56,248 nt of DNA, taken from the IMG/VR virus record IMGVR_UViG_3300033149_003977, positions 1 through 56,248 of that record; one strand, given 5' to 3'. Positions 15,092-35,940 of the stretch are shown here, in pieces. The DNA is from a virus. The notes beneath the pieces are model-generated. The model was given only the letters and a program-made list of their open reading frames with translations. It was not told where the DNA came from and searched no databases. Positions within the stretch are counted from its first letter, which is position 1, and every line of letters begins with the position of its first letter. The position numbers and the translations under genes are program-made.

Positions 15092-15120
15092 CTTGACAGA
15101 AATGGCGATCAGTATTATAC
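15092..15120 (+). promoter_or_regulatory. Sigma70-like promoter P5, main virion operon
   Basis: TTGACA (15092-15097), 17 bases, TATACT (15115-15120). The transcript would begin near 15127. It is followed within 30 bases by a terminator-like hairpin and then by about 26 kb of virion genes on the same strand. Confidence 0.85.
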
Positions 15121-15153
15121 TATAGATAGCTGCTTGAATTGCATATATTGAGC

Positions 15154-15202: not shown

Positions 15203-15212
15203 GGGAGGGGAC

Positions 15213-15662: not shown

Positions 15663-15677
15663 GGAGCGAATAAAAAT

Positions 15678-16547
15678 ATGAGCAGCATTCCAGGCACAAG
15701 TCCGCGCGGGCATACTCCTGTCGGCGGTGGCGGTGTATCACATCAGGACGACGCAGCATTTACGCCCGGAACCGATTTGGTGACGCCGACAGGGGCCATG
15801 TTCGATGACGTAGCCCCTGATTCTGTAGATGAAGGAGATGTTGGCATACCGCGCATGGCCGCGAATCGTGTCTTATATGTCACTATTCGAGACGCAGCGG
15901 GCAACGAACGCGGTGTTAATGTGGATGCCAACAATGACTTGGGAATTTCCCAGGCGACGCATGACAATCTGAACGCCAACGCCAACATACAAATCGGCGA
16001 CGCTGATGTGGACAACGGGAACCCAGTCCCTATCTCGGATGCGGGAGGCACGTTGTCGGTGGACGGGGCCGTGACCGTCACACCGCCTGGAGGCATGATC
16101 GAGGGCGGGTTGACCGAGATGATCGGCGTGGACGAGCAAGTTGACCAAAATGAATACAGCGCATCAGTCGGGGTTGCGCTTGGGGACGTTTACAGCGGCG
16201 AGATTCTGTCCATCGCTCTTTATTCGACCGAAAGTGGCACGGGAACCGTCCAAGTACCTGAAGGCATTGTGTACATTCTCGATGCCGACCCGAACGTGGC
16301 GGCGGGAGACACAGCATTTACTGCTGGGGAATGGGTGACAATTCTCGGAAAAATCAGAGTGTTGGCCGCCGACTGGGATGCGGACGCCAATGGCGCATTG
16401 GCTTACATCTACGACAATCCGGTGCCTTTTCATTCACTCAGTACGCTCTATTTCGTCTGGCGACAGACAGACGCGGCATCGTGGAATGATGCGGCGGGGG
16501 ACGACGAGCAATTACGGTTTAATTTTTGGTTCAGGAGAGACAGTTGA
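15678..16547 (+). CDS. Hypothetical virion structural protein, beta-rich
   Basis: The 289-residue protein has a Gly-rich, low-complexity N-terminus (about residues 1-60), a repetitive Asp/Asn-rich stretch (about 75-130), then a jelly-roll-like beta domain with FWFRRDS at the end. It is probably a capsid-associated or fibre protein. AAGGAG lies upstream of ATG 15678. Its stop overlaps the likely TTG start of the beta-helix gene. No cysteine or membrane segment is seen. Confidence 0.65.
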   Translation: MSSIPGTSPRGHTPVGGGGVSHQDDAAFTPGTDLVTPTGAMFDDVAPDSVDEGDVGIPRMAANRVLYVTIRDAAGNERGVNVDANNDLGISQATHDNLNANANIQIGDADVDNGNPVPISDAGGTLSVDGAVTVTPPGGMIEGGLTEMIGVDEQVDQNEYSASVGVALGDVYSGEILSIALYSTESGTGTVQVPEGIVYILDADPNVAAGDTAFTAGEWVTILGKIRVLAADWDADANGALAYIYDNPVPFHSLSTLYFVWRQTDAASWNDAAGDDEQLRFNFWFRRDS

Positions 16548-18094: not shown

Positions 18095-18103
18095 CAGGAG
18101 TAA

Positions 18104-18436
18104 ATGATGCGAGCAGAGCTGATAACACAAGGACAATTGGCCGCAGTTCCAACGGTGATGTGGACATGTGGTGATCGGGTTACGCATATTACGCTCATCA
18201 TCTTGAGTGAAACCGGTGGGGCCGGAGTGACTTGCACGTTGACGCAAACGCGGGCGGGCAGTGCGGCGCGACGGATTCAGCGTGTGGCGTTGGGAGCCAA
18301 TGGGCGGTTAGAGGCGACCTACACTGAACCAGGGATCGTTTTTGAGCCGACCGACGTTCTGATTGGAGACGACGGTGGGACGGGTGGAGTTGTAGATTAT
18401 TCAATTTATGGCGTCGTAGAGGAGACAGACATATAA
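18104..18436 (+). CDS. Small hypothetical protein between two beta-helix genes
   Basis: A 110-residue, strand-rich protein (VTHITLIILSE, GVTCTLTQT, GGVVDYSIYGVVEE) with no recognised family, probably a single beta-sandwich. ATG 18104 and ATG 18107 are both possible; 18107 has the better SD spacing from AGGAG (18096-18100). Its stop overlaps the next start (TAATG at 18434-18438). It could be a linker or decoration partner of the helix proteins beside it. Confidence 0.7.
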   Translation: MMRAELITQGQLAAVPTVMWTCGDRVTHITLIILSETGGAGVTCTLTQTRAGSAARRIQRVALGANGRLEATYTEPGIVFEPTDVLIGDDGGTGGVVDYSIYGVVEETDI

Positions 18437-19899
18437 TGACGACACAAGTATTTGATTCGAATGGTCGTCTGCTCACCACAGACGCGATACATCAACCGCA
18501 GATTGTCCGTAACAACTGGTACGTAGACAACGTCAACGGCGCTGCGGGCAATGATGGCATGACGCCAGAGAGTGCATTTGCGTCCATTGCAGAAGGGATC
18601 GCTGCGGCAGGAGAAGGAGATATAATTCACGTCGCTTCGGGGAATTATGATGAAGACGGCCTCGATTTGGCGGTAGATTACACGTCATTGGTCGGCGAAA
18701 CGGGAGCGGTGATTTGCAACACCGCCACAGGCACGTGTTTAACGTTGTCTGGTGATTATGTCAATGTCAAAAACATTATCGTTGATCAAGCAGGCGAAAT
18801 TGGATTTTACGTCACTGGTGCACATTGCACATTGAAGGAATGTAACGCTAGGTCTAACACCGTGGGGTACGAGGTGACCGGTTCATCGGTTGAAATTTAT
18901 GACTGTTGTGCGGGATATTATACGGTTGAGGGATTCGACATCAAGGGCGACGGTTGCAAAATATTCGATTGCATAGCGACAGGTCACAACGCGGCGGTGG
19001 TAGGTTTCACCGTTTCGGGAGGCGTACGGAACCATCTCAAACGATGTGAAAGCCTGGCGAACGCAACCAACTCGTTCGTCATTGATACGGCGGCAAATTA
19101 TACGTCAATCGAGGACGCAATATCTAGCGCGCATTGCGGCCCGCGTGAGGACAGGGGATTATTCAATACCTGGGTGAATTTTCACGGCAATCTTGTCAAT
19201 TATCCGCATGAACATGTCTATCCTTTAGCGTTGGGCGAGGGGGTGGCGGTCTCCGCTGCAACCATTTCCTCACAGGCGAATGATGAGACGAATGCTGCGA
19301 CTACGGCTCAATGGTATTATGGCGAACCGACGATATTGATTCCACGCGATACAATCGGAAATCACTATCAGGTACTCGGAATACACATTTTTACGGCGAC
19401 GGCGAATGAATTATGTCAATTCCAAATATTCATGGCAAAACCAGCGTTTACGTCGGCGAGAAACGGTGGCAACGCTTGGGATGAAGCGGAAGTAGATTTG
19501 ACAGTAGATGACGGCACGCTTTTCATGGATCAGGATTTATGTTTGATCTATTCCGATTACGCGGTTGAGATTGTCCGCGTGAATGGGGCACCTGTGGGCA
19601 ACGTTGTAACGATTGAACGGGAAGCCAGCCAATTTGTCGGCTCAAACACTGGCCTTCGGTGGAATCACACGACGAACGCGCCGGGAACCGAGACGTTGTG
19701 CGTGATTCACCGCGAATCTGTGCGATCAATGCACGCGATGTGGGGCAATTACATCACACTTGCCGCTTCGATTATGAATCCAAGGTATTGGAAACGCCCG
19801 ATAAATTTACCTGCGAATTCGGCTCTTTTAATACGCATCGTGAACCAAACAAGTTCATCGGATGTGACTTGGACGGCTATGCCGATTTATATGGGATAA
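18436..19899 (+). CDS. Right-handed parallel beta-helix protein 2
   Basis: The 487-residue protein repeats the opening motif of protein 1: NWYVDNVNGAAGNDG, TPESAFASIAEGIAAAGEGD and IIHVASGNY at about residues 29-75. About ten short beta rungs follow, with regularly spaced Cys (residues about 90-200, such as CTLKECNARSN and CKIFDCIATG). The C-terminal about 240 residues (from about 245) look like a separate beta domain. The many Cys are unusual for a cytoplasmic protein and may stack on one face of the helix. TAATG coupling fixes the start. A virion surface, sugar-binding or sugar-cutting role is likely; the active site is not visible. Confidence 0.8.
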   Translation: MTTQVFDSNGRLLTTDAIHQPQIVRNNWYVDNVNGAAGNDGMTPESAFASIAEGIAAAGEGDIIHVASGNYDEDGLDLAVDYTSLVGETGAVICNTATGTCLTLSGDYVNVKNIIVDQAGEIGFYVTGAHCTLKECNARSNTVGYEVTGSSVEIYDCCAGYYTVEGFDIKGDGCKIFDCIATGHNAAVVGFTVSGGVRNHLKRCESLANATNSFVIDTAANYTSIEDAISSAHCGPREDRGLFNTWVNFHGNLVNYPHEHVYPLALGEGVAVSAATISSQANDETNAATTAQWYYGEPTILIPRDTIGNHYQVLGIHIFTATANELCQFQIFMAKPAFTSARNGGNAWDEAEVDLTVDDGTLFMDQDLCLIYSDYAVEIVRVNGAPVGNVVTIEREASQFVGSNTGLRWNHTTNAPGTETLCVIHRESVRSMHAMWGNYITLAASIMNPRYWKRPINLPANSALLIRIVNQTSSSDVTWTAMPIYMG

Positions 19900-19903
19900 T
19901 ACA

Positions 19904-21793
19904 ATGCCATATTCGTCAATGAAAGACGTGAATCCTTCAATCAGAGGAATTAAACCTCCAGTTACGTTGGCTCAAGCGAACGAGATTGCGGCCATGGCCG
20001 ACGCTTTGGAACGGGGAGGTGAAGTCGAATCACCTTGGGCCGTGGCGATTAGCAATTTCAAAAAAACACATGTGGTCAAAAATGGACGGTGGGTGAAGAA
20101 AGCGGAGGAGAGTATGAGCAATTTGTTTGCACAGACGAAAATCGACATAGACGGAACGGATGTGTCGTTGGAATCGTTGATTGAAGCTTGGCGATTGAAA
20201 GAGGCCAAGACGAAAACGGAAAACGGCGTAAGTTATCCCGCGTCGGCGTATCTTGTTGTGGAAGATCCCGACAGACCGTCCACCTGGCATCTGCGGGTGC
20301 GGGACAAAAACGGCAAACCTGACCACCGGTTGATGGGCGGAGCATGGGCCGCGCTGCACGGTGGATATAGAGGCAACAAATATGAAGGTCCGGACAAAAC
20401 GAAAGCAATTGCAAAATTGAAAGCACTTTACAAAAGCGAGGACATGCAAACGCCAGGTGTTTCGGAGGCAAATGTAGGTGAAGTTTATCCTTACGATACG
20501 CCTCCGCCGACTTACGTTCCCGCGAATGCGATCAGTTTTGCCACTCTGGACGCAGCCCGCGACGCTGAGGCATTCGCCGACTCGGTAAGGCAACGAGTGG
20601 ATGAATTCCAACAGATGGTCGAAAACATCATGTGGTCGCCAGAAGTTGAAGACAAACCCGTGGCGTTGATCAATCTCCTGGATGAGTTCATTGGTCGCAT
20701 TTCGACACCTTCCGTTGAGACAATTACGGCACAAGAACAGACCGTGAAGGAACAAGTCGTGGAGGAAGAGGTCGGGTTTGCCGAAAGTTACGGTGGTGTT
20801 GTGAATCTGTTGGAAAAAGACGTGGATTTTGTGTACGATGGCGGGCCGCTGAAGGTTGAGGTCGCCGTGCTAGAACCTGGTTGGGGAAACAAAGAAGACA
20901 ACAATTATTATCCACGCGAGGTATTGCAACGAGACGCCAATAAAATCGCCGGAGCCAAAATGTATGTCACTGATCATCGACAGAGCGAGAAAAATGTTCG
21001 TACAGAGGTCAGTGAGGTTTTGGAATGTCCCGTGCGGTTCACCGAAACAGGTGCCCCGGTCGCGTTGGTGGGAATTTACGACGAGGATTTTGCACGAACT
21101 GTGTACAATCGCTGGAAGCTCGGGCGATTGGAGAATCTCCAATGCTCAATCCTGGGCACAGGCATCGGTCAATCGGGATTCAAACAAGACGGGAGGACAG
21201 GATACAAAATTACAGAATTGAAGGAGATCAAAAATGTGGACTGGGTGACCCGCGCCGGTGCAGGGGGACGGGCACTCAATATAGTTGAAAATTCAAACGG
21301 AGGACGGAACGATATGTTAAACAAGGACGAGAACGAAAAACTGGAAAAAGTTGAAGGATTTGAGGGGGCCAAAAAACTAGAAAAAGCTGAGGGAATTGAG
21401 AAGGCCGAAAAATTCCTTGAGGAGGTGGACATTCACGAGAACAAAGAGGAAACCGAATCCAAGCAAGAAGAGAATTTGGAGGAACAAACAAAACCGACTA
21501 CGTTTACGGCGGCAGATGTGCTTAAAAAGCTCCTTGAATCGGGGCTTCCCAACGCCGTTCAAATGTTTTTGGTGGAAGCGTCTTATGAAACGCCGAAAGA
21601 GCTTGACGAGGCGATTGAGCGACAAAAGAAAGTCGTGGCTGAAATCCGCGAATCATTGACGTCACAAAAAAAGACATCCGGAGCCAAACCGTTCGCTATG
21701 GGCGGGACGGCCAAAAAGAAAATCGCCGAAGTTGACAATAAAACGATAGGCGAACGAATTGACGCCGTGAACGAAAGGTATTTTGGAAGATAA
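19904..21793 (+). CDS. Capsid maturation protease fused to ChaB-like and scaffold regions
   Basis: This 629-residue protein appears to be a fusion. Residues 1-65 resemble the ChaB-like unit (SPWAVAISNFKK...KNGRWVKK) often put before phage proteases. Residues 95-180 hold a second conserved unit (DHRLMGGAWAALHGGYRGNKYEG). The protease occupies about 300-460, with NNYYPREVL, likely catalytic His358 in YVTDHR and Ser415 in LQCSILGTG, as in prohead serine proteases. A Glu/Lys-rich coiled coil at 470-545 fits a scaffold, and the end binds capsid protein in related phages. It acts inside the prohead and would cut itself and perhaps the capsid protein. ATG 19904 follows the previous stop by four bases. 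It lies two genes before the major capsid gene. Confidence 0.82.
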   Translation: MPYSSMKDVNPSIRGIKPPVTLAQANEIAAMADALERGGEVESPWAVAISNFKKTHVVKNGRWVKKAEESMSNLFAQTKIDIDGTDVSLESLIEAWRLKEAKTKTENGVSYPASAYLVVEDPDRPSTWHLRVRDKNGKPDHRLMGGAWAALHGGYRGNKYEGPDKTKAIAKLKALYKSEDMQTPGVSEANVGEVYPYDTPPPTYVPANAISFATLDAARDAEAFADSVRQRVDEFQQMVENIMWSPEVEDKPVALINLLDEFIGRISTPSVETITAQEQTVKEQVVEEEVGFAESYGGVVNLLEKDVDFVYDGGPLKVEVAVLEPGWGNKEDNNYYPREVLQRDANKIAGAKMYVTDHRQSEKNVRTEVSEVLECPVRFTETGAPVALVGIYDEDFARTVYNRWKLGRLENLQCSILGTGIGQSGFKQDGRTGYKITELKEIKNVDWVTRAGAGGRALNIVENSNGGRNDMLNKDENEKLEKVEGFEGAKKLEKAEGIEKAEKFLEEVDIHENKEETESKQEENLEEQTKPTTFTAADVLKKLLESGLPNAVQMFLVEASYETPKELDEAIERQKKVVAEIRESLTSQKKTSGAKPFAMGGTAKKKIAEVDNKTIGERIDAVNERYFGR

Positions 21794-22342: not shown

Positions 22343-23425
22343 ATGCAAAAGATAATTCGATGGATTGAAGAAGTCGCACTTGCTATGGATGGCGACGCCG
22401 ACAGTCCTCAAGTAATGGCTGACGTAAAACTCATGCGGGAAATGGCGAATAACATGCATTCGATGAATGCTCGTCAATTCCAAGAGGTTATGACAACTGC
22501 GCATTTTACGGATTACTTCAGCGATGCCCTGTCGCGCATGTTTTACAAAGACTATGCGTACAAAGCGGGGACGTGGAAAGAATACACCACGGCTGACGTC
22601 ACGCCCGATTTCCGTGATGTAAAAAGGTATCGCATGACGGAACCGGGGACATTGTTGCAGAGGCGAGAAAAGGCGCTTCACAAAGCAACCAGCATCGACG
22701 ACAGCGTAATTAACTACGGTGTCGAGGAATACTCTCGTGAGTTTGACATTTCGTGGCGAGTCATAATGAACGACGACTTGGGCAAAATCAGGGAGACACC
22801 ACGACGCATGGCGAACGCAGCGGGAAGATGGCTTGACGCCTGGGTATCGGCGTTGTATGACAACGCAACGACTCAAGCGACCGCCGCAGCGTTAGGCGCA
22901 CCCTGGTCGGGCACGGGACGGCTGACCGCCCCGAACCTGGCGCTGGGATTGAACGGCATGATGCAGCGGGTGGACGCCGCAGGCAATCCGATGAATTTAC
23001 CTCGCGTGCATCTCGTGATCCCACCGATCCTCCAGATCCAAGCCGCCGACATATTGCAAGATTTGCTGTCTTACGGCGGCCCTGGTGGGAACGTGTTAGC
23101 GCAGTTCGTCGCCGGAGTTCACATCGATCCGTACATTACGACGACCGCTTTAGCGACGCCATGGTATCTGTTCGCTGATCCGGCGGACATGACAGTGGTT
23201 CCCGTGGTTCGCCTTGACGGGTGGCCGGGGCCAGTTACTAGCATGAAAAGGAGCGACCTGAAGATTTTGTCGGGAACGGCCCCCAGTGCGTTCACGATGG
23301 GTAGTTTCGCCACTGGCGACATCACGTACATGGTCGAGGACATCATCGGCGGATGGGATGATGCGTCGTGGGTTGGCGTCGTAGACTTTCGTGGGTTCTA
23401 CTACAGTTCAGGCACGACACCGTAA
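22343..23425 (+). CDS. Major capsid protein (HK97-fold)
   Basis: The 360-residue protein follows the protease and decoration genes and has HK97-fold features. An N-terminal helical arm (residues about 1-50) is followed by SDALSRMFYKDY and the E-loop region (EYTTADVTPDFRDVKRYRM). The P-domain follows (INYGVEEYSREFDISWRVIMNDDLGKI, split here for length), with a long spine helix (TPRRMANAAGRWLDAWVSALYD). The A-domain ends in VEDIIGGWDDASWVGVVDFRGFYY. Many copies assemble the head. A strong SD (AAGGAG) precedes ATG 22343. N-terminal cleavage by the upstream protease is possible; the arm is shorter than a classic delta domain. Confidence 0.88.
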   Translation: MQKIIRWIEEVALAMDGDADSPQVMADVKLMREMANNMHSMNARQFQEVMTTAHFTDYFSDALSRMFYKDYAYKAGTWKEYTTADVTPDFRDVKRYRMTEPGTLLQRREKALHKATSIDDSVINYGVEEYSREFDISWRVIMNDDLGKIRETPRRMANAAGRWLDAWVSALYDNATTQATAAALGAPWSGTGRLTAPNLALGLNGMMQRVDAAGNPMNLPRVHLVIPPILQIQAADILQDLLSYGGPGGNVLAQFVAGVHIDPYITTTALATPWYLFADPADMTVVPVVRLDGWPGPVTSMKRSDLKILSGTAPSAFTMGSFATGDITYMVEDIIGGWDDASWVGVVDFRGFYYSSGTTP

Positions 23426-23700: not shown

Positions 23701-24675
23701 ATGGGTTTAATTGATCGGGGCGTATTGCCTTACCAAGAACCCGTTTGGGGGTTCCCTTGGACGGAGACACCCGAAATCGTCGGCGGCGGTGACCATCGCA
23801 TTTTCTACGTCGATCCGGCGCATCCGAATGCGTCGGACTCGAACCAGGGAACTGATCCGCAGTATCCTTTCGCGACGATGACAGCCTGTTTGACGGCGGC
23901 AACAAATCCGCTAATCGCTGCATTCGACACTGTATACCTGTGCAGTGATTTGACCGAATCGGTCATCACGCCGGATTACAGCGTCGGGCCGTCCAACATC
24001 AATATCATCGGTGCAGGGACGACGCTCTACGCGCCGTACTGGGACAGCGATGACAATGCAGCCGCCTGTCTGGACATCCGTGCGCCAGGCTATCGCGTGA
24101 AAAACATTCGATTTGGCGGGCCGACGACCGCGCCTTGCGTTTGGTTACGATGCACGGTGCCGAACGCCGATGACATTTCTATTTTCAGTGTAATCGAGGA
24201 TTGTCAGCTCTACGGTCAGGAGACTGGCCTGAGCGGGATTGACCTTTTTGGCGCACCGTATGAAGTGAAAATCCGTCGTTGTGAATTTTGCTTTTTCCAC
24301 AACGCGGGGGGGACGGCGTGCGCAATCACAGCAACAAACACAGCCTGGGCCGATCCATACAGGATCAAGATAGAAGATTGCATATTCTACGAGAATGACA
24401 ATCATATTGATGCGTCTTTCAACGTGTCAGTGATCAAAAACAATGTTTTCATATCGCAAGGCCAATATCCGGCCACGATCAATGTGGATTTGCGGGGTGG
24501 CACGCGCGGTGAAAACGCGGTCGTGGGGAACCAGTTTCCGGACGATTACAGTCAACCAGGGGGATACTGGGCCAACGCCGGAGCGCCTGGTTGTTGGGCA
24601 GGCAATTTTTCGGAAGACACGGCAGAGGCTGAGGTTGGCGACAACGGATTAACCACTGCGCCTCCTGCGCCATAA
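23701..24675 (+). CDS. Right-handed parallel beta-helix protein 3
   Basis: The 324-residue protein has the same opening as proteins 1 and 2: IFYVDPAHPNASDSNQGTD, YPFATMTACLTAA and FDTVYLCSDLTE (residues about 36-83). Short beta rungs follow with regularly spaced Cys (about 105-260), and a Gly/Pro-rich end. The N-terminal 30 residues look like a virion-binding arm. It is placed directly after the capsid and its small partner, and AGGAGG precedes ATG 23701. Three such proteins in a head module are unusual; the shared opening suggests they arose by duplication or have similar attachment. Confidence 0.8.
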   Translation: MGLIDRGVLPYQEPVWGFPWTETPEIVGGGDHRIFYVDPAHPNASDSNQGTDPQYPFATMTACLTAATNPLIAAFDTVYLCSDLTESVITPDYSVGPSNINIIGAGTTLYAPYWDSDDNAAACLDIRAPGYRVKNIRFGGPTTAPCVWLRCTVPNADDISIFSVIEDCQLYGQETGLSGIDLFGAPYEVKIRRCEFCFFHNAGGTACAITATNTAWADPYRIKIEDCIFYENDNHIDASFNVSVIKNNVFISQGQYPATINVDLRGGTRGENAVVGNQFPDDYSQPGGYWANAGAPGCWAGNFSEDTAEAEVGDNGLTTAPPAP

Positions 24676-25291: not shown

Positions 25292-25531
25292 CTGAGGTCA
25301 GTCGAAAAAATAGTAACGCCACGGATTATCTTTGGTCAAGAGGGACTTGTCCTGCTCAAGTATCTTGGCTCGTTCAATGGACGATGGCGCGGGGTCTGTA
25401 CCGAACACCTTTACGAGTTCCGCCGAGAGCAGCGGGAACAATACGTTGATAGACGTGACGTGGAAGGATTCCTGGCGGCCAAAAGGTCAGAAGATGAGCA
25501 ATTATTTGAGGTGGTGAAACACGAATGGTAG
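25292..25531 (+). CDS. Neck-region protein without a normal start codon
   Basis: A well-composed frame ends at TAG 25529-25531 and overlaps the next ATG (25525). It encodes a protein-like sequence with FGQEGLVLLKYLGSF, a charged helix (EHLYEFRREQREQYVDRRD) and EGFLAAKRSEDEQLFEVV. Going upstream, the frame has no ATG, GTG or TTG until the previous in-frame stop. Candidates are CTG 25292 or ATA 25310 (GAGGTC upstream), or a +1 shift at the A6 run 25305-25310 from the ATG at 25270. The order between connector and gp10-like gene suits a head-tail stopper. The coordinates given use CTG 25292 and are tentative at the 5' end. Confidence 0.55.
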   Translation: MRSVEKIVTPRIIFGQEGLVLLKYLGSFNGRWRGVCTEHLYEFRREQREQYVDRRDVEGFLAAKRSEDEQLFEVVKHEW

Positions 25532-26040
25532 CAAAATTTGTGGCAATTACGCCCGGTCCTCTCGGCGTTCCCGAAATGCTCAGGGAAATGCAGCGTGGTC
25601 TCGACAATGTAAAAAAGAACATTATTAAGTTGTACGAGGAAACGTCGGAAACATGGGAACACAAACCAAAGTTCTATTGTGTACGACGACCGCGTCGCCT
25701 TACAAGGAACACCCTCAATGTTCAAATGCGTTTTGGAACAGATGACCAGGTGTGGAATTGGCTTGACCAGGGAACCAGGCCGCACGCCATTTATCCTAAA
25801 AAAGTTGGAGGGACATTAGCTTTTCCGTCGACGTATAGGGCCAAGACAACGCCGAACCGACTTCGATCTAGTGGTGGTGGTTCTAGCGGCCCGACGATTT
25901 TTGCAAAGGGAGTGCAGCATCCGGGCACCAAAGCCCGTCGGTGGAGCAAACTTATAGCGTCCCGAGGCCAAGCAATTGTCAAACGTGAAATGGAACAAGC
26001 AGTATTCCGTGCACGTGCAGGAAGCGGGTTCGCGATCTGA
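25525..26040 (+). CDS. HK97 gp10-like tail completion protein
   Basis: The 171-residue protein matches gp10-like neck proteins: an N-terminal helix (VPEMLREMQRGLDNVKKNI), a beta core with WLDQGTRPHAIYPKK, and the characteristic C-terminal VQHPGTKARRW followed by a helix. Members join the completed tail to the head. ATG 25525 overlaps the preceding stop. No clear SD lies directly upstream, so translation is probably coupled. Confidence 0.8.
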   Translation: MVAKFVAITPGPLGVPEMLREMQRGLDNVKKNIIKLYEETSETWEHKPKFYCVRRPRRLTRNTLNVQMRFGTDDQVWNWLDQGTRPHAIYPKKVGGTLAFPSTYRAKTTPNRLRSSGGGSSGPTIFAKGVQHPGTKARRWSKLIASRGQAIVKREMEQAVFRARAGSGFAI

Positions 26041-26057: not shown

Positions 26058-26492
26058 ATGATTGATAAAACATTCGATAATATAGAAAAATCGGAGGTGG
26101 AAGAGACGAAACCAAAACGAGGAAAAAAAGTCGTTGTGCAAATCATGGATCGACCAAACAAGGACGTCGTGCTGGTTCAGTGGGAAGACAAAGATCGAAC
26201 GCGACGGGGGTTTCTTCCGACACAAGAAGTCTCCGATAACAAGGTAACCGAATCAGCGCTCAAATGTGCCACACCTTATGGTGAATCGTGGGAGGAATTA
26301 TTGGAAGAACCAAACGTGACCAAGAAATCAATCGCCGCCGAAATGCGGAAACATGGGATATGGACGAAAGAAGATTTGCTTGCCAATCCCGTCAAAATCC
26401 TAAAAATTGCGGCGAGAATAGTTGAGCCGACAATTTACGCCTTGGTTCGGCTTTACACGCGAGGAGGCAATAAATGGCAGAGAAACATGTAA
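26058..26492 (+). CDS. Hypothetical neck or tail protein
   Basis: The 144-residue protein has a charged N-terminus (KSEVEETKPKRGKK), a beta segment (VVVQIMDRPNKDVVLVQWED) with GFLPTQEV resembling a small SH3-like unit, and a helical C-terminus. It lies between the tail completion gene and the tail-tube genes, where tail terminators are found, but no terminator family is recognised. ATG 26058 has GGAGGAATAAATGA upstream as SD. Its last 19 bases overlap the next gene. Confidence 0.6.
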   Translation: MIDKTFDNIEKSEVEETKPKRGKKVVVQIMDRPNKDVVLVQWEDKDRTRRGFLPTQEVSDNKVTESALKCATPYGESWEELLEEPNVTKKSIAAEMRKHGIWTKEDLLANPVKILKIAARIVEPTIYALVRLYTRGGNKWQRNM

Positions 26493-28003
26493 CTTCTCAA
26501 TGGAACACAGTCTGGATTCAGAGAAATGGGCCGAACACCAAACCCGAGTTTTTGACCTGTTACGCGATTCCTACGATCACGGATCCCAAAGGTGCAATCA
26601 CTCGGACAAAGTGTTTCGATCCGGCGACCAATCAATGGATTACGGTCGGTGATCGAGTTAGTCCACCCGACGATCCGACGTTGAGTCTGGACGGGTTGAC
26701 GTCTAAAACGGCAGATCTTATAGAGTTGGCCGAGCGGACGGGTTGTCCGTTCGCACTTTATGTCAACTCGTACGAGTGTCCACCGAGGAACGTTTTTCTC
26801 GGATTTGACCGTGGGAAAGTAATCGAATATGCCAGGATCGAGACGGAAACGGAAAATGGATTGACAGCCCGTGATGATGCGGTGGACACAACCCTGGGAT
26901 TTGATCTGAGCGGCGAGAAAATTGAAAAATATTTCTCTTGCACCCTTGACCGACTAACCATCGCCGACACAAATCCTGCACGAGATATAGCGTTTTGCAA
27001 TCAACTGCAATGCCAAGGGCCATGCGGTGAATACAAACCATTGTGCAATGATGGAATAATCGTTTGCAATGCCGCTGCATTAGGAATAGCGAACGTTTAC
27101 TACACGCAGGACGGCGGCATAACCTGGACAGTGACAACGGCGCAACCGTTCATCGCAGATGAACACATTGCGTCCGTCGTATGTTTCCCTATCGCCAAAG
27201 GTGTGACGCGATGGATCGTGGCGCGTGGAACGACAGACGGTGCAAATGAAGCCGAAGTCGCTTATTCCGACGATCTTGGAGACACGTGGACAACTGTAGA
27301 ACAGGGAAGCACAGTCGGCGAATATTATCTGCATTCGGGCAGTCTATTCGCGTTGGACATGCAACACATCTGGGCTGCGTCGAACCTGGGGAACATTTAT
27401 TTTTCCAGTGATGGAGGCGTGACCTGGACAGAACAAACACAACCCAACACAGTTCCGCTGAATTACATTCGCTTTTGCGATTTCAACGTCGGCGTCGCGG
27501 TCGGTGGCGCGACTGGCGCAAGCCAAGTCATCCTGACCACGACCGACGGTGGGGCACATTGGACAGAAGGTAGTTTTGCGAACGGAGGTCCCGCGGCGAC
27601 CGTCATGGCCTATTGCGTCGAGGTCTTAGATAAGAACAGATTTTTTGTTGGGTTTGAGAACGGCGCGCTTTACTACACGCGCGACGGCGGTGCGACTTGG
27701 GCAGAGCGGACTGTGGCAACTCCGGCGGGAATGCTCTCCACGGGTGCGATCTACGACATCATGCGTGTGCCTGGGGATGACTTCTGTCTGTGGATTTGTA
27801 CCCTTTGGGAGGACGGCCAGAGCAATTATTACGGAAGTGTGCAGCGCAGTGTGAATGGCGGATATGATTGGGATGTATGGACGACCGTCGCGCTTGATGA
27901 CGATTCGTGTGGATTGTACGCCATCTGGGCGTGCTCGTTCAATCAGGCGTTTTCGGTTGGGAACACGGAAACAACCGCGATGGTGGTAGAAGTTAGTGAC
28001 TAG
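26474..28003 (+). CDS. Tail-tube-like protein with Asp-box beta-propeller, copy 1
   Basis: The 509-residue protein has two parts. Residues 1-190 form a conserved N-terminal domain in the place of a major tail protein (before the chaperone and tape measure). Residues about 205-509 carry six Asp-box motifs of the form SxDxGxTW, at about 211, 264, 311, 356, 402 and 459 with spacing near 48, as in BNR/sialidase-type beta-propellers. The linker has a Cys-rich stretch (CNQLQCQGPCGEYKPLC). AGGAGG lies eight bases before ATG 26474. The propeller would decorate the tail outside, perhaps to bind surface sugars. The next gene is a close copy. Confidence 0.75.
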   Translation: MAEKHVTSQWNTVWIQRNGPNTKPEFLTCYAIPTITDPKGAITRTKCFDPATNQWITVGDRVSPPDDPTLSLDGLTSKTADLIELAERTGCPFALYVNSYECPPRNVFLGFDRGKVIEYARIETETENGLTARDDAVDTTLGFDLSGEKIEKYFSCTLDRLTIADTNPARDIAFCNQLQCQGPCGEYKPLCNDGIIVCNAAALGIANVYYTQDGGITWTVTTAQPFIADEHIASVVCFPIAKGVTRWIVARGTTDGANEAEVAYSDDLGDTWTTVEQGSTVGEYYLHSGSLFALDMQHIWAASNLGNIYFSSDGGVTWTEQTQPNTVPLNYIRFCDFNVGVAVGGATGASQVILTTTDGGAHWTEGSFANGGPAATVMAYCVEVLDKNRFFVGFENGALYYTRDGGATWAERTVATPAGMLSTGAIYDIMRVPGDDFCLWICTLWEDGQSNYYGSVQRSVNGGYDWDVWTTVALDDDSCGLYAIWACSFNQAFSVGNTETTAMVVEVSD

Positions 28004-28015
28004 GAGGCAATAATA

Positions 28016-29539
28016 ATGGCAAAAACAGTCAACAGTTCGTGGAATGTCGTTTGGATTCAGCCGCAAGGGCCGAACACTGAACCGCAATATCTTACATGTT
28101 ATGCGATTCCAACGATCACGAATCCCCACGGTGCAATTTCACGGACGAAATGTTTTGATCCAGTGTCAAACAAATGGATCATCGCGACCGAACGGACGAC
28201 CGCGCCCGACGACCCGACGTTGAGTCTAGACGGGTTGACGTCCAAGGCGGCAGACCTCATAGAGTTGGCCGAGCGGACAGGATGCCCGTTCGCGCTTTAT
28301 GTCAACTCGTATGAATGTCCGCCGAGGAACGTTTTTCTCGGATTCGACCGCGGGAAAGTAGTCGAATACGCCAGGATCGAAACGGAGACAGAAAACGGTC
28401 TGACGGCACGTGACGACGCGGTGGACACAACTTTGGGATTTGATCTGAGTGGTGAGAAAATTGAAAAATATTTCTCATTAATTCTCGATCACATCACAAT
28501 CGCCGAAGCCGCACCCGCTCTTGACGTGGCATTTTGCAATCAGCTGCAATGCCAGGGGCCGTGCGGTGAATACAAGCCGGTATGCAACGAGGGTGTAATC
28601 GTCTACGCCAACATCGGAGCCGCCACACCGAACGTGTACTATACGCAAGACGGCGGTGCGACGTGGACAGGTACCGCGACAAACCCGTTTGCCGTGAGCG
28701 AAAAAATTTCATCGGTGGTTTGTTTCCCTTGGGATCGATCAACCATTCGTTGGATCGTAGGCCGAGGAACAGCGAGCGCTGGTCCGCTAACCGTTGAGTG
28801 GACAGAGGATCAGGGAACTAATTGGAACTCCGTCACGGTTGGATCAAATAATGGAGAATACATACCGCACTCAGGCGGCTTATTCGCCTTGGACAAGGAT
28901 CACATTTGGGCCTGCACCGATATGGGAAACATCTATTTTTCCAATGACGGAGGTGTCAGTTGGACTGAACAGGTGCAACCAAACACCGATGACCTGAATT
29001 ATATCAAATTTTGCGACGAAAATAACGGCGTCGCAGTCGGCGGGACGAGTGGCGTGAGCCAAGTCATCCTGACCACGACCGACGGTGGAGCGCACTGGAC
29101 GGCAGGCAGTTTCGCGAACGGAGGTCCCGCAGCAACCGTCATGGCCTACTGTGTTGAGATTCTCGACAACCAGCGATTTTTCGTCGGATTCGAGGATGGG
29201 ACGCTTTACTATACACGCGACGGCGGTGTGACTTGGGCGCAACGCACAATCGCGACCCCCGCAGGAGCCACGGCACAAGTGATTTACGACATCATGCGTG
29301 TGCCTGGGGATGACTTCTGTCTATGGTTGAGCACACAGGCGACCAAGAGTGGGCCTGAATACTGGGGCACCGTTCAACGTTCAGTGAACGGCGGATACAG
29401 TTGGGAACTTTGGGAAACGCAAGTTGCATTTGATGACGGGGCGTACGGGATGAACGCACTTTGGGCCTGTTCGTTCAATCACGCATGGAGCGTTGGCAAT
29501 ATAGCGACCAACGGCACGGTAGTGGAAATTTCGGACTGA
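28016..29539 (+). CDS. Tail-tube-like protein with Asp-box beta-propeller, copy 2
   Basis: The 507-residue protein is a tandem paralogue of the preceding gene. Long stretches are identical, such as PDDPTLSLDGLTSK, LAERTGCPFALYVNSYECPP and VFLGFDRGKV, while loops of the propeller differ (VYYTQDGGATWTG, FSNDGGVSWTE, YTRDGGVTWAQ). The RBS (AGGAGGCAATAATA) is also copied. This is a recent gene duplication with diversification, or two isoforms that mix in the tail as in some siphoviruses. It is followed by two palindromes (29545-29605). Confidence 0.75.
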   Translation: MAKTVNSSWNVVWIQPQGPNTEPQYLTCYAIPTITNPHGAISRTKCFDPVSNKWIIATERTTAPDDPTLSLDGLTSKAADLIELAERTGCPFALYVNSYECPPRNVFLGFDRGKVVEYARIETETENGLTARDDAVDTTLGFDLSGEKIEKYFSLILDHITIAEAAPALDVAFCNQLQCQGPCGEYKPVCNEGVIVYANIGAATPNVYYTQDGGATWTGTATNPFAVSEKISSVVCFPWDRSTIRWIVGRGTASAGPLTVEWTEDQGTNWNSVTVGSNNGEYIPHSGGLFALDKDHIWACTDMGNIYFSNDGGVSWTEQVQPNTDDLNYIKFCDENNGVAVGGTSGVSQVILTTTDGGAHWTAGSFANGGPAATVMAYCVEILDNQRFFVGFEDGTLYYTRDGGVTWAQRTIATPAGATAQVIYDIMRVPGDDFCLWLSTQATKSGPEYWGTVQRSVNGGYSWELWETQVAFDDGAYGMNALWACSFNHAWSVGNIATNGTVVEISD

Positions 29540-29625: not shown

Positions 29626-30420
29626 GTGGCAGCGCAAAGAAAAGATCGTTACGTCACAAGCTCGGGTATCGAATTGAAGTTGGTGCCCGTTCGCGACATT
29701 CTCGTGGAGAAATACGTCGAAAAGGCTCGGCGTGAATTCATCGCGCAAGGGAAACAGGTAGACCCTCCCGCGTACACCATCACTACGGCCACGGGGGAAG
29801 TTGAAGGCCCGTTTCCCTTTACGGAAGAAACCCTCGATGATCCTCAAGATCCCATTCAAACTCGGATAAACCACGCCAAGTGGCAACAATATATCGCTGC
29901 TCGCGAGGAATTGGAAGCAGAATTGAATGAGAAGCGATTTGTTGCTTGGATTATGCTTGGCGTGGATTGTGAAGTGCCCGACGATGGGTGGGAGGACAAA
30001 TATGAACTGTTTGGTGTTGAGGTGCCCGACAATCCCTTGGAACGCAAGGCGTTTTGGCTGATTTATGAGGTTCTCGATCAATATGATCGTGGCATGATCG
30101 TTCCTGCATTGCAATTACTCAGCGCTGGACGATTGATAACACAGGAACAGATCGACTTTTTTCGAGAAAATGCTGGCCGTGCGATTGAGAGGGAATCCGC
30201 CGCGCTATTTGAAGACGCTCTCAGTTCCCTTCGGGAAATGGGAAGTGAGTCAAAGATTCATGGAATTGAAAACGGCGAAGGCATGGGGAATCAAGACGCC
30301 GTCGGAATGGGACAGTTTGTCGGGAGACGACAAAGCAGAAATGTTGGCAATGGAGAACGCACTGGATCGGATGCAGGCGTGGGAAATAGCGAACCCATCT
30401 CAGAGGAAACCGAAGGATAA
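29626..30420 (+). CDS. Tail assembly chaperone, zero-frame product
   Basis: The 264-residue product lies directly before the tape measure, where siphoviruses encode a pair of tail chaperones by a programmed frameshift. The first about 200 residues are well formed: VRDILVEKYVEKARREF near the start and the helical KAFWLIYEVLDQYDRG in the middle. After about residue 205 the zero frame becomes Gly/Asn-rich and looks untypical, while the +1 frame becomes typical. The short product helps to load the tape measure. GTG 29626 has AAAGGAAG upstream. Confidence 0.75.
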   Translation: MAAQRKDRYVTSSGIELKLVPVRDILVEKYVEKARREFIAQGKQVDPPAYTITTATGEVEGPFPFTEETLDDPQDPIQTRINHAKWQQYIAAREELEAELNEKRFVAWIMLGVDCEVPDDGWEDKYELFGVEVPDNPLERKAFWLIYEVLDQYDRGMIVPALQLLSAGRLITQEQIDFFRENAGRAIERESAALFEDALSSLREMGSESKIHGIENGEGMGNQDAVGMGQFVGRRQSRNVGNGERTGSDAGVGNSEPISEETEG

Positions 30421-30427
30421 CAGTTAA
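30140..30427 (+). CDS. Tail assembly chaperone, +1-frame extension
   Basis: Frame +1 relative to the chaperone gene is open from 30140 to the TAA at 30425-30427 and encodes a segment typical of the second chaperone product: FMELKTAKAWGIKTPSEWD, then DDKAEMLAMENALDRMQAWE. It is expected to be made by +1 (or -2) frameshifting somewhere between 30140 and about 30250, giving a fusion of about 265 residues. An in-frame ATG at 30170 exists but has no SD. The slippery site is not certain. The stop overlaps the tape-measure start (TAATG). Confidence 0.7.
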   Translation, partial: HRNRSTFFEKMLAVRLRGNPPRYLKTLSVPFGKWEVSQRFMELKTAKAWGIKTPSEWDSLSGDDKAEMLAMENALDRMQAWEIANPSQRKPKDNS

Positions 30428-33400
30428 TGCAAAAAATCGGCCTCGCGGCGGTCATGGACATGACCAGCTTCACCAAGGGCATGACCGCATACAATAAAGG
30501 CTTGGGGATTATGAGCAACAATACGTCCAAAGCGGGTAAGCTCATCTCCACAAGCCTGAAAGTCATCGGAGGAGTGACTGTGGGGGCAGCAACCGCAATC
30601 GGCGCGATTGGCGGAGCTGCCATGAAATTGGCCTCCGACGCGCGGGCGATTCCCGGCATCACGGCGGCATTTAACAATTTGGGTGGCAGTATTGAGAGAA
30701 TGCGAGCGGGATCAGCGGGAATGATCGCCGACGTTGACCTGATGAAAGAATTTAACCGCGCTGCGACGCTCGTTTCGCAAGACTTTGCGCAAAAACTCCC
30801 CGACGCCATGCAATACCTCCAACGTGTGAGCGCGGCCACCGGTGATGACATGGGTTACATGCTCAATTCGCTCACGTTGGGAGTGGGTCGCCTGTCGCCG
30901 ATGATTATCGACAATTTGGGCATCCAGGTCAAATTGTCGGATGCGTACGAGGTGGGGGCCAAGGCGCTCGGCAAGAGCGTCAAAGAAATGACCAAAGCCG
31001 AACAGCAGACGGCGCTGATGAATATGGTCATGGCGAAATTGGAAGAGAAATATGGCGCAGTGCCGGGCCTGGCTGGAACCGCCGCGCAGTCATTTGCATC
31101 CTTGAACGTTACACTCAAAAACGTAAAAGACGCCATCGGCGTTGCGCTGATTCCTGCAATGAACGAACTCTTGAAACCGCTTAGCGAATTGGCGGGGGTA
31201 ACAGGAGACAAAGTCGTCGCCTGGGCACAAAAAATAGGGCCGATTTTGGCCAAAACTGTCGCCAACGGCGTCACGACAGCGACCAAAGCTATAAACGCTA
31301 TCATTAAAACGTTTGATCGATTAACCGAAAAAATTAGTTATGTTATCGGCGTAGCGAAGGCGGGATTTGCCGGTTCCGGCGTTGCGGGTGGAGCGGCAGG
31401 ATTTCTGGCCGCTCTCGGCATACCGGAAAATATCACAGCTACAATTCATGGCATCTTAACCAAGGTGGAATCGGCAATTCGCACTGGCATTGATAAAATC
31501 CGCACGGCGTTGAGCGGAGCGGGTGGCGTCGTTGGTTTTGGCGAGACCATATTCGAGACCTTGAAGGCCAATTTGCCCGCCTCGTTTCGAACTATCATTG
31601 AAGAGATTATACCAGAACTTATCGGAACATTGATCGAGCTTCCCAATAGAGTCATCGCCGGTTTTCAGGAAGGTGGCATAAGTGGTGGATTTTCAGCGTT
31701 GTTGGAAGGTGTGTTCGACGTCGCCGGTGGCATAAGAAACATCAGACAAGGAATTTTAACTGGATTGCTTGAGATCGGTCAAACTTTGTTGACCAAACTG
31801 GGCGAGATGTTTCCCGACCTTCAACCATTCATCGAGACATTCCTACAACCCATCCTTGGCATGGGCCAACGGATATTAACGATTGTCTTTGATTTGCAAG
31901 CTCAAATCGGCCCCGCACTCGGACAAATATTCTCCGCTGCGTTGCCCATGCTTCAGACCATAATAGGAAACGTCATGCGCATCATAGAAGCCGCCATTCC
32001 CGTGGTGCAGGAATTTGTGGGGTCTGCCATCTCCTCGTTGATCAACGCATTTCAAAATTTGGCCCCCATTGTCGGGCAGGCGTCCACGGTAATAGCCGAC
32101 CTTGCCGTCCAGGCATTCCCCATTCTAGCGACCATAATAAGTAAAGTGCTTGACTTAATTCCCAATCTGATTCCGATTATTGGTAGTCTCGTTGACATCT
32201 TCGGTACGGTTGCGTCCGTGGTGTTGCGTGTTGCGGGAGATGTGTTTCCCAAGGTAATTGACGTCGTCACTAGGGTTGCAGGAATCATCAGTCAACACAT
32301 GCCCGCGATTCAATCAATCGTCGAGATGGCCATGTCAGCGATTGAAGCAGCTTGGAATGCTGTGTGGCCCGTTGCAAGCATGGTGGTGGACGTCGCAATG
32401 AAGACGGTTGAGAATGTCATCAATCAGGTTATACCGGTCATACTCAAAATCGCAAATGATGTTTTCCCGAAAGTTGTTGAAGCCGTACAAAAATTGGGTT
32501 CTGTCGTCCGAGAACATTTACCACAGATTCAATCAATTATTGAAACAGCGATGAGCGTGATTAGCACGATCATCGACAGAGCACTTACAATAATCCTGGC
32601 CATCTGGAACGCCGTGTGGCCAGTTTTGAGCAATGTGGTAGATGCGGCTCTTGGGGCTATCGGGCCGATAGTGAGTGGCGTCCTAAATACGGTGGAAGGC
32701 ATTATAAACACGGTCATGTCTGTTATCCAGGGTGACTGGGAGGGAGCGTGGAACGGAATCAAAGACATACTTGAGGGGGTATGGGATATTATTGTATCTG
32801 TCATAGAAGGTGCACAAGACCTTATAAAAGCTGCAATTGAAGGCATCATCGGAATGTCAGAAGAGGAACTCCAAGCAGCAGCACAGGGGTGGCTAGAATC
32901 CGCCGGGGAATGGATAGAAAATTTAGTCGCCGGTATAGAAAATGGTGCGACTGACATTACAGACAAAATCGAATGGATGATAGACGTAGTAATCATGGAG
33001 GTAAAGAAAAAAGCAACCGAATTTATTAAGATTGGTGATGACATCGTGCAAGGTATCGTTAATGGAATCACGGGCGCTATCGGAAGTGTCAAAGCAGCGG
33101 CAAAAAAGGTTGCTGATGCCATTCCTACGGGCGTTAAAAAGTTGCTCGGCATTGGGTCTCCTTCAAAGGTCATGGCCCAAGTCGGGTTAGAAACTATGCT
33201 TGGCCTCGTGAAGGGCATCGACGCGGGCGAGGCGAAAGTTATGAAGACTGTTTCAAAGGTGGTCAAAGAAGTCATCGGTTCATTTGAACGAATACTCGAC
33301 CTTCAGGAACGAATGGGTGGGACACCAGGTCAATTGCCAGAAAAAATCGCCGAATGGTTGAGCGGATTCACCACCGTCGTGAGGAAAATCATCGACGCCA

Positions 33401-35940
33401 TCGGGACGTTGAATGACGCTATCGGATATAAGCGAATCAAGGAACTTGACAAGACAGCCACACGTTTTCGGCGGATGATCGAAGCCGTTATGGTGGATTT
33501 CACGGCGATTAAAAATGTCGATTTGCCCGACATGGATGCATGGAGCGCGAACATCGTCCGTGTCGGTGTGGCGATGGTGAATGCGTTGACGACGCTCGTA
33601 GCAACTACCGGTCAATCGAGTCTCAAACTCGCAGCGCGGTTCGCTGACATCGTGAAAACTATCTTCTCATTCGTGCAGGATGGCGTGGACGTCTTGGCGA
33701 CCTTGGCTGAATATACACCAGTGCAAAATATCGGGGCGAAGATCGAGAATTTCGTCGCTCGGATGATGGAGGTCATTCCAGCCCTCCGTGATCTGGCTCA
33801 CGCTTACGACAAAGGGAAAATCGAGTACGCAAATACGATCTTGACGGCGATGAAAGGTGTTACCGACATCGTGAAACCTGGCATCGATGCGATCAAGGCA
33901 TTGGTCGATTACAACGTGGTCAAAAGTCTGAGTGCAAAGGCGCAGAATTTCAAGGATCGTCTCATGGAAATCGTGAACGTCCTCTCAGAGACGGCAGACG
34001 ATTGGGCAACCGAGGCGATGCAAGCGGCGGCGGAGTTTTACGACGCGGCGACGAACGTCCTTGGAATTGTGCAACCTGGCATCGAAGCCATCGTGAACCT
34101 GACCGAATACGACGAACAGGAATCCCTCCAAGATCGCGTGACCAATTTGCGTAGTCGGCTTATGGAGATTGTAGATACACTGAAAAAGAGTTGGGATGAA
34201 TTTGACCAAGATGGAGTAAATGCAGCGAAGGTATTTTATGAAGCAACTCAAAATATCGTCAATATCGTCAAACCGGCCATTGATGCCATCATCACTATGG
34301 TTAGTTACGAAGTGCAAGAATCAGTAAAAGAACAGGTTGAGAACATGCGCGCGCGACTCATGGAAATCGTAGATGCATTGAAGGAGGGTTGGGAAAATTT
34401 CGACACCGAAGGGGTCGAGAGTGCACAGGCATTTTATTCTGCTGCACAAACCATGTTCGGAGTCGTAAAACCGGCCATCGACGCCATTACCGCATTGACC
34501 GATTATACGCGAGTGGCGAATTTGGCGCAAAAAGTGACCATGTTCAAACTTGATCTTCACATCATCGTGGACAGCATGGACGAACTTGCCGATCAATTCA
34601 TCGGACGTGGGTTGCCGGACAGTGCCGAAACCGCGGCGGCTATGCAAACTATCGTCGGAGTCGTGAAACCGGCAATCGACGCGCTGGCGCTTCTAGCCGT
34701 GTATCCGAAGCGATCCAGGCTTAACGAGAATATGGAACAGTTCAAGACCGATCTTCACAGTTTGCTCGGCAAGATCAACAAACTCGCTCAGCACTGGGCG
34801 ACGGTCGGGTTGGGCGCAGCGCAGACGTTCTCCGACTCCGTGACCAAAACATTCGGGTTTATAAAACCGGCCATCGCCTTGCTCGGCGTGCTTGCCAAGT
34901 ATCCGAAAAAAATCAAATTAAATGTGACGATGGAACGGTTCAAAAAAGACCTGCAAAATTTGCTCTTGAAAATAAACAAGATGGCCAAAAGTTGGCTGGG
35001 ACAGGGTACGACGGACGCAGAAAATTTCTCTCAGGCCGTGCAAACCATCGTCGAATTCGTGAAACCGGCCCTCGACGCGCTTGACGAGATGGCGAAATAC
35101 AAGAGCGGCGAACTCGCGGGAGCGATGCAGGATTTCGCCGACGACATATTGGATTTGGTCGATACGATTCAAACCTCTGCGCAGCGCGTGGCGTTGGCTC
35201 AATTTGACGCCGGGGTGCTCGCGCAAACGGTCATCACTATTTCACAGGCGATAAGAACTGGTCTGGACGCAACGATTGTAGAAATGAGCAGCGCGGGATT
35301 CGATGCGGCGATGTTCCGAAATACTCTCGCCTCAATCGTTGAGGACATTTTGTATTCAATCACAGCGGCCACGACCGCGTTGACTTCGGGAACCGAAATA
35401 TCTGATTTCACCGATGCGGTAGGCGGGATTGTGACGGGAATTCAAGAAGCGTTCGATGAATTGACGACGCTGGGCAGCGGTGGAATAAGCCAGGCCATGA
35501 CTGAGTTCGTGAACGCGATCAAACAAGGTCTAACCAACGGACGATTTGCTGTAATTGACGGCATTCAAAAAATCATTGCCGACATGGCCGGACTCAATCA
35601 TGTATTTTACAACACCGGCTGGCAAGCTGGAAATAATTGGATTTCCGGTTTGATTTCAGGAATGCAAGCTAAAACTGCTGAAATGGAGCGGGTTGCCACT
35701 AACCTCGGATCGATAGCGAACGACGCCTTCGCGTCAGCTCCACCGCCGGACGCGCCAGGCAACACGCAATCGCGCAGTGTGGATATGACGACCACACGTC
35801 CCCTCGCGGCGGCAACTACCTCGATTTCACGGAGCGTGAGCGTGAATATCGGGAATGTGACGATCAGCAACGGCATGGATCTGGCTGAATTCCGGACGAC
35901 AATCAGAGATGAAATAATAAACGCACTGGGAGGTGACTGA
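30427..35940 (+). CDS. Tape measure protein
   Basis: The 1837-residue protein sets tail length. By the rule of about 1.5 Angstrom per residue it predicts a tail near 275 nm. The N-terminal region is helical with hydrophobic Gly/Ala-rich stretches (about residues 45-65 and 315-325). The middle (about 490-850) has several hydrophobic helices with repeats around VxxAMSxIxxxW. The C-terminal third (about 1100-1560) has about seven tandem repeats of 70-80 residues around VKPAIDAI and RLMEIVDxL. No peptidase or lysozyme domain was seen. TAATG coupling fixes the start. Confidence 0.92.
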   Translation: MQKIGLAAVMDMTSFTKGMTAYNKGLGIMSNNTSKAGKLISTSLKVIGGVTVGAATAIGAIGGAAMKLASDARAIPGITAAFNNLGGSIERMRAGSAGMIADVDLMKEFNRAATLVSQDFAQKLPDAMQYLQRVSAATGDDMGYMLNSLTLGVGRLSPMIIDNLGIQVKLSDAYEVGAKALGKSVKEMTKAEQQTALMNMVMAKLEEKYGAVPGLAGTAAQSFASLNVTLKNVKDAIGVALIPAMNELLKPLSELAGVTGDKVVAWAQKIGPILAKTVANGVTTATKAINAIIKTFDRLTEKISYVIGVAKAGFAGSGVAGGAAGFLAALGIPENITATIHGILTKVESAIRTGIDKIRTALSGAGGVVGFGETIFETLKANLPASFRTIIEEIIPELIGTLIELPNRVIAGFQEGGISGGFSALLEGVFDVAGGIRNIRQGILTGLLEIGQTLLTKLGEMFPDLQPFIETFLQPILGMGQRILTIVFDLQAQIGPALGQIFSAALPMLQTIIGNVMRIIEAAIPVVQEFVGSAISSLINAFQNLAPIVGQASTVIADLAVQAFPILATIISKVLDLIPNLIPIIGSLVDIFGTVASVVLRVAGDVFPKVIDVVTRVAGIISQHMPAIQSIVEMAMSAIEAAWNAVWPVASMVVDVAMKTVENVINQVIPVILKIANDVFPKVVEAVQKLGSVVREHLPQIQSIIETAMSVISTIIDRALTIILAIWNAVWPVLSNVVDAALGAIGPIVSGVLNTVEGIINTVMSVIQGDWEGAWNGIKDILEGVWDIIVSVIEGAQDLIKAAIEGIIGMSEEELQAAAQGWLESAGEWIENLVAGIENGATDITDKIEWMIDVVIMEVKKKATEFIKIGDDIVQGIVNGITGAIGSVKAAAKKVADAIPTGVKKLLGIGSPSKVMAQVGLETMLGLVKGIDAGEAKVMKTVSKVVKEVIGSFERILDLQERMGGTPGQLPEKIAEWLSGFTTVVRKIIDAIGTLNDAIGYKRIKELDKTATRFRRMIEAVMVDFTAIKNVDLPDMDAWSANIVRVGVAMVNALTTLVATTGQSSLKLAARFADIVKTIFSFVQDGVDVLATLAEYTPVQNIGAKIENFVARMMEVIPALRDLAHAYDKGKIEYANTILTAMKGVTDIVKPGIDAIKALVDYNVVKSLSAKAQNFKDRLMEIVNVLSETADDWATEAMQAAAEFYDAATNVLGIVQPGIEAIVNLTEYDEQESLQDRVTNLRSRLMEIVDTLKKSWDEFDQDGVNAAKVFYEATQNIVNIVKPAIDAIITMVSYEVQESVKEQVENMRARLMEIVDALKEGWENFDTEGVESAQAFYSAAQTMFGVVKPAIDAITALTDYTRVANLAQKVTMFKLDLHIIVDSMDELADQFIGRGLPDSAETAAAMQTIVGVVKPAIDALALLAVYPKRSRLNENMEQFKTDLHSLLGKINKLAQHWATVGLGAAQTFSDSVTKTFGFIKPAIALLGVLAKYPKKIKLNVTMERFKKDLQNLLLKINKMAKSWLGQGTTDAENFSQAVQTIVEFVKPALDALDEMAKYKSGELAGAMQDFADDILDLVDTIQTSAQRVALAQFDAGVLAQTVITISQAIRTGLDATIVEMSSAGFDAAMFRNTLASIVEDILYSITAATTALTSGTEISDFTDAVGGIVTGIQEAFDELTTLGSGGISQAMTEFVNAIKQGLTNGRFAVIDGIQKIIADMAGLNHVFYNTGWQAGNNWISGLISGMQAKTAEMERVATNLGSIANDAFASAPPPDAPGNTQSRSVDMTTTRPLAAATTSISRSVSVNIGNVTISNGMDLAEFRTTIRDEIINALGGD

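Follow-up and report, generated by a model that had tools for sequence, protein, structure and literature searches.

The window, i.e., the whole stretch of DNA analysed here, comprises positions 1 to 56,248 (56,248 nucleotides) of the IMG/VR virus record IMGVR_UViG_3300033149_003977. Its tail region contains two adjacent genes, termed copy 1 and copy 2, each of which encodes a putative tail-tube domain fused to a C-terminal Asp-box beta-propeller. The features of this region are as follows (basis of the assignment in brackets):

25525–26040, + strand: probable tail terminator of 171 amino acids (aa), at the neck end of the tail module (position, sequence pattern)
26058–26492, + strand: protein of 144 aa between terminator and tube gene, overlapping the start of copy 1 (ORF)
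26460–26473, + strand: ribosome-binding site of copy 1, CGAGGAGGCAATAA
26474–28003, + strand: copy 1, 509 aa, with putative tube domain (residues 1–186) and C-terminal Asp-box propeller (about 190–509) (ORF, Pfam)
28001–28015, + strand: stop codon of copy 1, then the ribosome-binding site of copy 2 in the gap between the genes, TAGGAGGCAATAATA
28016–29539, + strand: copy 2, 507 aa, with putative tube domain (residues 1–186) and C-terminal Asp-box propeller (about 190–507) (ORF, Pfam, AlphaFold2, Foldseek)
29626–30420, + strand: tail assembly chaperone (G-like) of 264 aa (position, arrangement conserved in relatives)
30170–30427, + strand: overlapping ORF of 85 aa in the +1/-2 frame, candidate T-like chaperone extension (same frame relation in relatives)
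30427–35940, + strand: tape measure protein of 1837 aa (PHROGs, tblastn)

Both copies start with ATG and are separated by 12 nt; an identical ribosome-binding site, AGGAGGCAATAA, is present ahead of both start codons. Promoter and terminator signals were looked for, and nothing above chance was seen. The two proteins are 71% identical over their full length. The initial annotation had described adjacent genes of 509 and 507 codons, which share a conserved N-terminal domain and lie in the position of the major tail protein. All of this was borne out: the N-terminal domains are 82% identical at residues 1–190 (97% at residues 64–155), and the pair is flanked by a tail-terminator-like gene on one side and by chaperone and tape-measure genes on the other.

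The sequence pattern of the 171-aa protein is presumably of the HK97-gp10-like kind; convincing matches to Pfam or PHROG families were obtained neither for this protein nor for the 144-aa protein. Genes similar to the putative terminator sit immediately 5' of the fusion gene in the related loci L010, L011, L015 and L020, where the fusion gene adjoins them and the 144-aa ORF is missing; this ORF cannot therefore be a general tube gene. A search of the region for another tube gene, which had been named as a possible objection to the initial annotation, yielded no good candidate.

On the 3' side, an overlapping second frame, as in chaperones of the G/GT type, is characteristic of the gene that separates tube and tape measure. 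The great majority of loci possess such a frame, in the +1/-2 relation in 32 counts versus 3 for the other frame. The +1/-2 relation in nearly all loci that possess a second frame is unlike the -1 relation of lambda; a common slippery heptamer was not seen in the overlap (29626–30427) or in those of the relatives. The tape measure protein of the window matched many tape-measure families, among them phrog_305 (E 1.2e-49), and by tblastn annotated tape measures. The set for comparison of gene order consisted of 36 loci including the window, 34 of which were testable, since the contig does not end first. In 34/34 testable loci the nearest long ORF 3' of the fusion gene starts 781–1917 nt on, with only the chaperone region between. 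For the window and for 6/9 relatives (L008, L011, L015, L021, L028, L032), PHROGs identified this ORF as tape measure; that of L005 matched a family common to the L008 tape measure, and those of L010 and L020 gave no PHROGs match. In Streptomyces phage Animus the annotated order is terminator – major tail protein – chaperone (with frameshift) – tape measure, which is identical to the order found here, except that a "major tail protein" stands in place of the fusion. Thus, the fusion gene occupies the major-tail-protein slot between terminator and chaperone/tape measure.

For each gene, six SxDxGxTW boxes with a spacing near 48 residues had been claimed. With the strict search pattern, six Asp boxes were detected at residues 211, 265, 311, 356, 402 and 459 of copy 1 and at 210, 263, 309, 354, 400 and 456 of copy 2, at a spacing of 45–57 residues; number and regularity were thus confirmed, although SxDxGxTW in its strict form applies to about five boxes, the sixth being degenerate in each copy (SVNGGYxW). 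Shuffled controls (20,000 per protein) contained 0.09 Asp boxes on average and 3 at maximum. Pfam matches to the C-terminal 310 residues were PSII_BNR (Ycf48), Sortilin-Vps10 and BNR, all over the curated cut-offs, and PSII_BNR was matched in 39/39 family members scanned. The best PDB matches by Foldseek to residues 190–507 of the copy 2 model were Ycf48 structures (TM up to 0.75, E 1e-12); sialidases and GH74 xyloglucanases were also matched, and Asp boxes are common in both of these groups. The propeller of both copies is a Ycf48-like Asp-box beta-propeller, which according to the model probably has seven blades, i.e., six Asp-box strand sets and one C-terminal set. The photosystem II assembly factors Ycf48/HCF136, which bind a D1 peptide, resemble the C-terminal half in fold and in their PSII_BNR hit, but they have no tube domain and are stand-alone cellular assembly factors.

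The propellers had also been called sialidase-like. This is appropriate with respect to the Asp boxes, but the fold is closest to Ycf48/HCF136, the RIP/FRIP motif is absent in copy 1 and copy 2, and a conserved catalytic polar set (Arg/Glu/Tyr/Asp) outside the Asp boxes was not found across 39 homologues, the conserved propeller positions of which are mainly Asp-box and core residues. A sialidase function (GH33-like) was rejected because of the missing catalytic residues, and an enzymatic role in general is disfavoured by the lack of RIP/FRIP and the nature of the conserved positions.

Copy 2 was modelled by AlphaFold2 from an alignment of 39 homologues, with pLDDT 88.3 and pTM 0.87 (a two-sequence alignment gave pLDDT 36). 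Its N-terminal part contains strands at residues 10–15, 41–48, 53–61 and 68–74 and a helix at 81–88, followed by strands at 92–98, 112–127 (long), 139–145/148–153, 156–160 and 168–173. The published scheme for tail tubes is beta1-beta2-long loop-beta3-alpha-beta4-beta5.1/5.2-beta6.1/6.2 (PMC8718954). With respect to the order of secondary structure elements, residues 1–175 agree with this scheme, if 53–61 is counted as an additional strand within the beta2-beta3 loop; the structure prediction which had been suggested as a check of the N-terminal domain is thus compatible with a tail-tube fold. The Foldseek lists for the full-length model were filled by propeller matches, and two short viral entries (181 and 247 aa, one of them a "virion structural protein"), which align over about 175 columns, may be matches to the tube domain. 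No relation of residues 1–190 to known tube families emerged from hmmscan (Pfam, PHROGs) or from hmmsearch on PDB, and the hhalign comparisons with PF16461, PF06199 and six individual proteins (major tail proteins or occupants of the slot) all stayed below 1% probability. Since known tube families often share no sequence similarity among themselves, this result does not exclude a tube identity. A PDB match of the two-sequence profile to 7on8 ("SAKe6AR") did not recur with a 36-sequence profile and was ignored.

Four cysteines (Cys90, Cys101, Cys179 and Cys183) are present together in 34/39 homologues and are all missing in one (L015). In a second clade the linker reads CxxCG, which resembles a zinc knuckle. 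A four-cysteine zinc site, or disulphides, at the joint between tube and propeller would be plausible from these residues.

Relatives were reached via the major capsid protein: that of locus L002 is 56% identical, and one fusion gene is found there at the same place. Stepwise profile scans then revealed the full-length fusion (tube domain and propeller) in 44 other IMG/VR contigs, a few of which are near duplicates. Nearly all members are about 480–540 aa long and align end to end, the exception being one copy of 758 aa in L124. All loci matched by a query with the tube domain only (13/13) also carry the propeller, which would therefore be a fixed part of the family, as far as pattern-based scans can see. 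Viral contigs gave no match when scanned with copy 2 or with both N-termini. Similarly, tblastn against 50,697 phage records gave no match to copy 2, nor to three relatives at a similar threshold; the family was not found among the phage records of this isolate collection. A BFVD entry (A0A1P8DJ39, 497 aa) matched the fold over the full length (TM 0.70/0.71, E 4e-19) and is probably a member of the family, judging from the predicted structure. A scan of genome contigs gave generic propellers without tube domain, nearly all of them matched from about residue 176 onward. The tube domain was not matched in ten individual genomes or in more than 1,000 genomes from three phyla, and hence no host or prophage was indicated; as the phyla had been guessed, this says little. 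Most likely, the virus is an uncultivated siphovirus (with a long tail) of bacteria or archaea.

Most relatives possess a single copy of the fusion. In the phylogenetic tree the pairs of the window, of L007 and of L124 each consist of sister sequences (supports 100/100, 100/99 and 100/99, respectively), so that duplication occurred independently at least three times; the pair of L010 is older. The upstream paralogue in L124 (5324–7600, 758 aa) contains the tube domain, the propeller and then a Laminin_G_3 (ConA-like lectin) domain. Between the copies of the window, residues 64–155 (dN 0.014, dS 0.80) differ strongly from the propeller (dN 0.29, dS 1.8), and the near identity of the tube core fits two proteins which would be obliged to share one lattice. 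However, dS is 0.80 in the tube core versus 1.5–3 elsewhere, so that gene conversion would explain the near identity no less well than selection. In the L124 pair the pattern of divergence is the opposite one. General conservation of residues 64–155, as a sign of a shared lattice, was considered and rejected, since the pattern is missing in other paralogue and orthologue pairs; the conservation is peculiar to the pair of the window and may be due to gene conversion.

The tail-tube interpretation of both genes is well supported, although not proven, by the slot in 34/34 loci, the strand order of the model and the lack of another candidate. The best explanation overall, which we consider likely, would be that the two genes encode paralogous siphovirus tail-tube proteins, which assemble together and carry propellers for weak, multivalent binding to the host surface. 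Residues 1–175 would form the tube subunit, which would polymerise into hexameric rings that enclose the tape measure protein; a linker rich in cysteine (about 174–190) would join the subunit to the propeller, which should project outward from the tube. In the pair and the relatives, tube and propeller are encoded in a single continuous frame, without frameshift, and each tube subunit should therefore carry one propeller. As a rule of thumb, a tail measures 1.5 Å per tape-measure residue and about 40 Å per ring; with 1837 residues this would amount to some 70 rings and about 400 propellers per tail. The second copy would stem from tandem duplication and most likely co-assembles with the first, so that the tail would bear two propeller types; the identical ribosome-binding sites and the nearly identical tube cores point in this direction. 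The propeller itself would be a weak, highly multivalent binder of a glycan or protein of the host surface rather than an enzyme. Such binding appears as the most likely role in view of the lectin domain in L124, the specific binding of host cells by extensions of major tail proteins (MTP) in lactococcal 936 phages (PMC6669499), and the weak binding of surface carbohydrates that is ascribed to the Ig domains of other tubes (PMC8718954).

The main rival with respect to the role of the propeller is a structural one: it could pack on neighbouring subunits and stiffen or protect the tail, without any host ligand. The Ig domain of lambda gpV, which runs along the tube and adds contacts between rings (PMC8718954), could serve as a model for this; moreover, a propeller is present in every family member found, and among its conserved positions there is no set of polar residues indicative of a binding site. 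Yet the propeller segments diverge faster between the copies than the tube core, and one lineage has added a lectin-like domain, both of which fit a binding surface better, and a mainly structural role appears rather unlikely to us. An active glycan hydrolase of the sialidase or GH74 type, clearing capsule or slime along the entire tail, is suggested by the matches to such enzymes and by their Asp boxes, but with non-catalytic Ycf48 as best fold match, and neither RIP/FRIP nor a family-wide set of catalytic residues, it must be regarded as very improbable.

Other doubts concern the tube. One copy only could form it, the other being a minor variant, such as a ring at tip or neck or a decorated subunit of low abundance. 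A single copy suffices in most relatives, and in the tube of SPP1 two variants occur together at about 3:1 (PMC8718954); the identical ribosome-binding sites and nearly identical tube cores of the two copies speak against such a division, which we hold to be unlikely, if still worth serious consideration. The fusion could also be an accessory protein of the tail, with the tube encoded by another, unrecognised gene; for this speaks that a sequence relation to known tube families was not detected. This is improbable, as the predicted order of the fold fits a tube, the family has no further ORF of suitable size in the interval from terminator to tape measure, and in the four loci named above the fusion is the sole gene between terminator and chaperone. 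Within the preferred reading, that of co-assembling tube proteins with binding propellers, a further elaboration can be offered tentatively and with rather less than even confidence: a high-copy mosaic tail of both paralogues would present, along its entire length, a polyvalent adhesive coat, which could diversify by repeated tandem duplication and by addition of further lectin domains to one copy, with the cluster of four cysteines orienting the propeller at the joint.

On the preferred reading, the family is a decorated major tail protein with a new decoration, and no new kind of system. Decorations of tubes known so far are mostly small Ig-like domains, and their function is disputed. In lambda gpV, T5 pb6, YSD1_22 and SPP1 gp17.1* the N-terminal tube domain likewise has a C-terminal neighbour that lies outside the tube (PMC8718954), but the latter adopts an Ig/FN3 fold and comprises about 90 residues, compared to about 310 for the propeller. 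The MTP of 936 phages with TpeX, for example Phi2R06A, have a large C-terminal addition, a total length of 470–530 aa and display along the tail, and their tube domain, too, was unmatched to known tubes by HHpred (PMC6669499). Their TpeX consists of an Ig-like adhesin and a BppA-like module, the latter being present in some of the subunits through a programmed frameshift, whereas in the present fusion a beta-propeller is encoded in frame and hence would be found in every subunit. Extension by programmed frameshift with partial occupancy, as in SPP1 gp17.1* and 936 TpeX, was not seen in the pair or its relatives; for mixed tubes there is a precedent in SPP1 (PMC8718954). A phage-encoded Asp-box propeller of similar length is the "outer capsid protein" of Vibrio phage VP2/phiVC8 (perhaps phrog_8700), but its gene ends another structural module, after the tail fiber gene, and sequence similarity is confined to the propeller.

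In this family of uncultivated siphoviruses, the putative decoration domain exceeds the tube subunit in size; its fusion in frame, and the fact that the tube was never seen without it, suggest that it is important. The family could provide a testable case for what tail decorations do, and a widespread viral "BNR/Ycf48-like" protein would receive an annotation as tail tube. Paralogous tubes appear to have arisen repeatedly, and in one lineage one of the copies acquired a lectin-like domain.

Several other genes deserve mention. In L115, a separate downstream gene (13894–17466, 1190 aa) contains PKD and Asp-box propeller repeats and no tube domain. The tape measure of L004 (10427–12811) has a HINT/intein-like domain at residues 595–726, near the C-terminus (PT-HINT, Hint_2 and Intein_splicing below the curated cut-offs). 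In the window, a DNA methyltransferase (8508–11063) shows methyltransferase matches at residues 2–116 and 540–829; the intervening stretch, which looks like an intein, starts with CVDEETEVLTPHGWE and ends with KIFVTGN, directly before S. A TET-associated glycosyltransferase is encoded at 5768–6640 (Pfam TAGT, E 4e-45; phrog beta-glucosyl-HMC-alpha-glucosyltransferase), which indicates modified DNA bases.

The major capsid protein (22343–23425) is closest, among phage records, to those of the archaeal Methanoculleus viruses Blf4/L4768 (30% identity). Between the portal and capsid genes, which is an unusual place, lie three large genes (16526–21793; 522, 487 and 629 aa), the first of them with a right-handed beta-helix domain; their products could possibly be head decorations or fibres. 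The protein encoded just 3' of the capsid gene (23701–24675) contains a FYVDxxHxNA-like motif, which is common to beta-helix-like proteins at the equivalent place in relatives, and is a possible head decoration.
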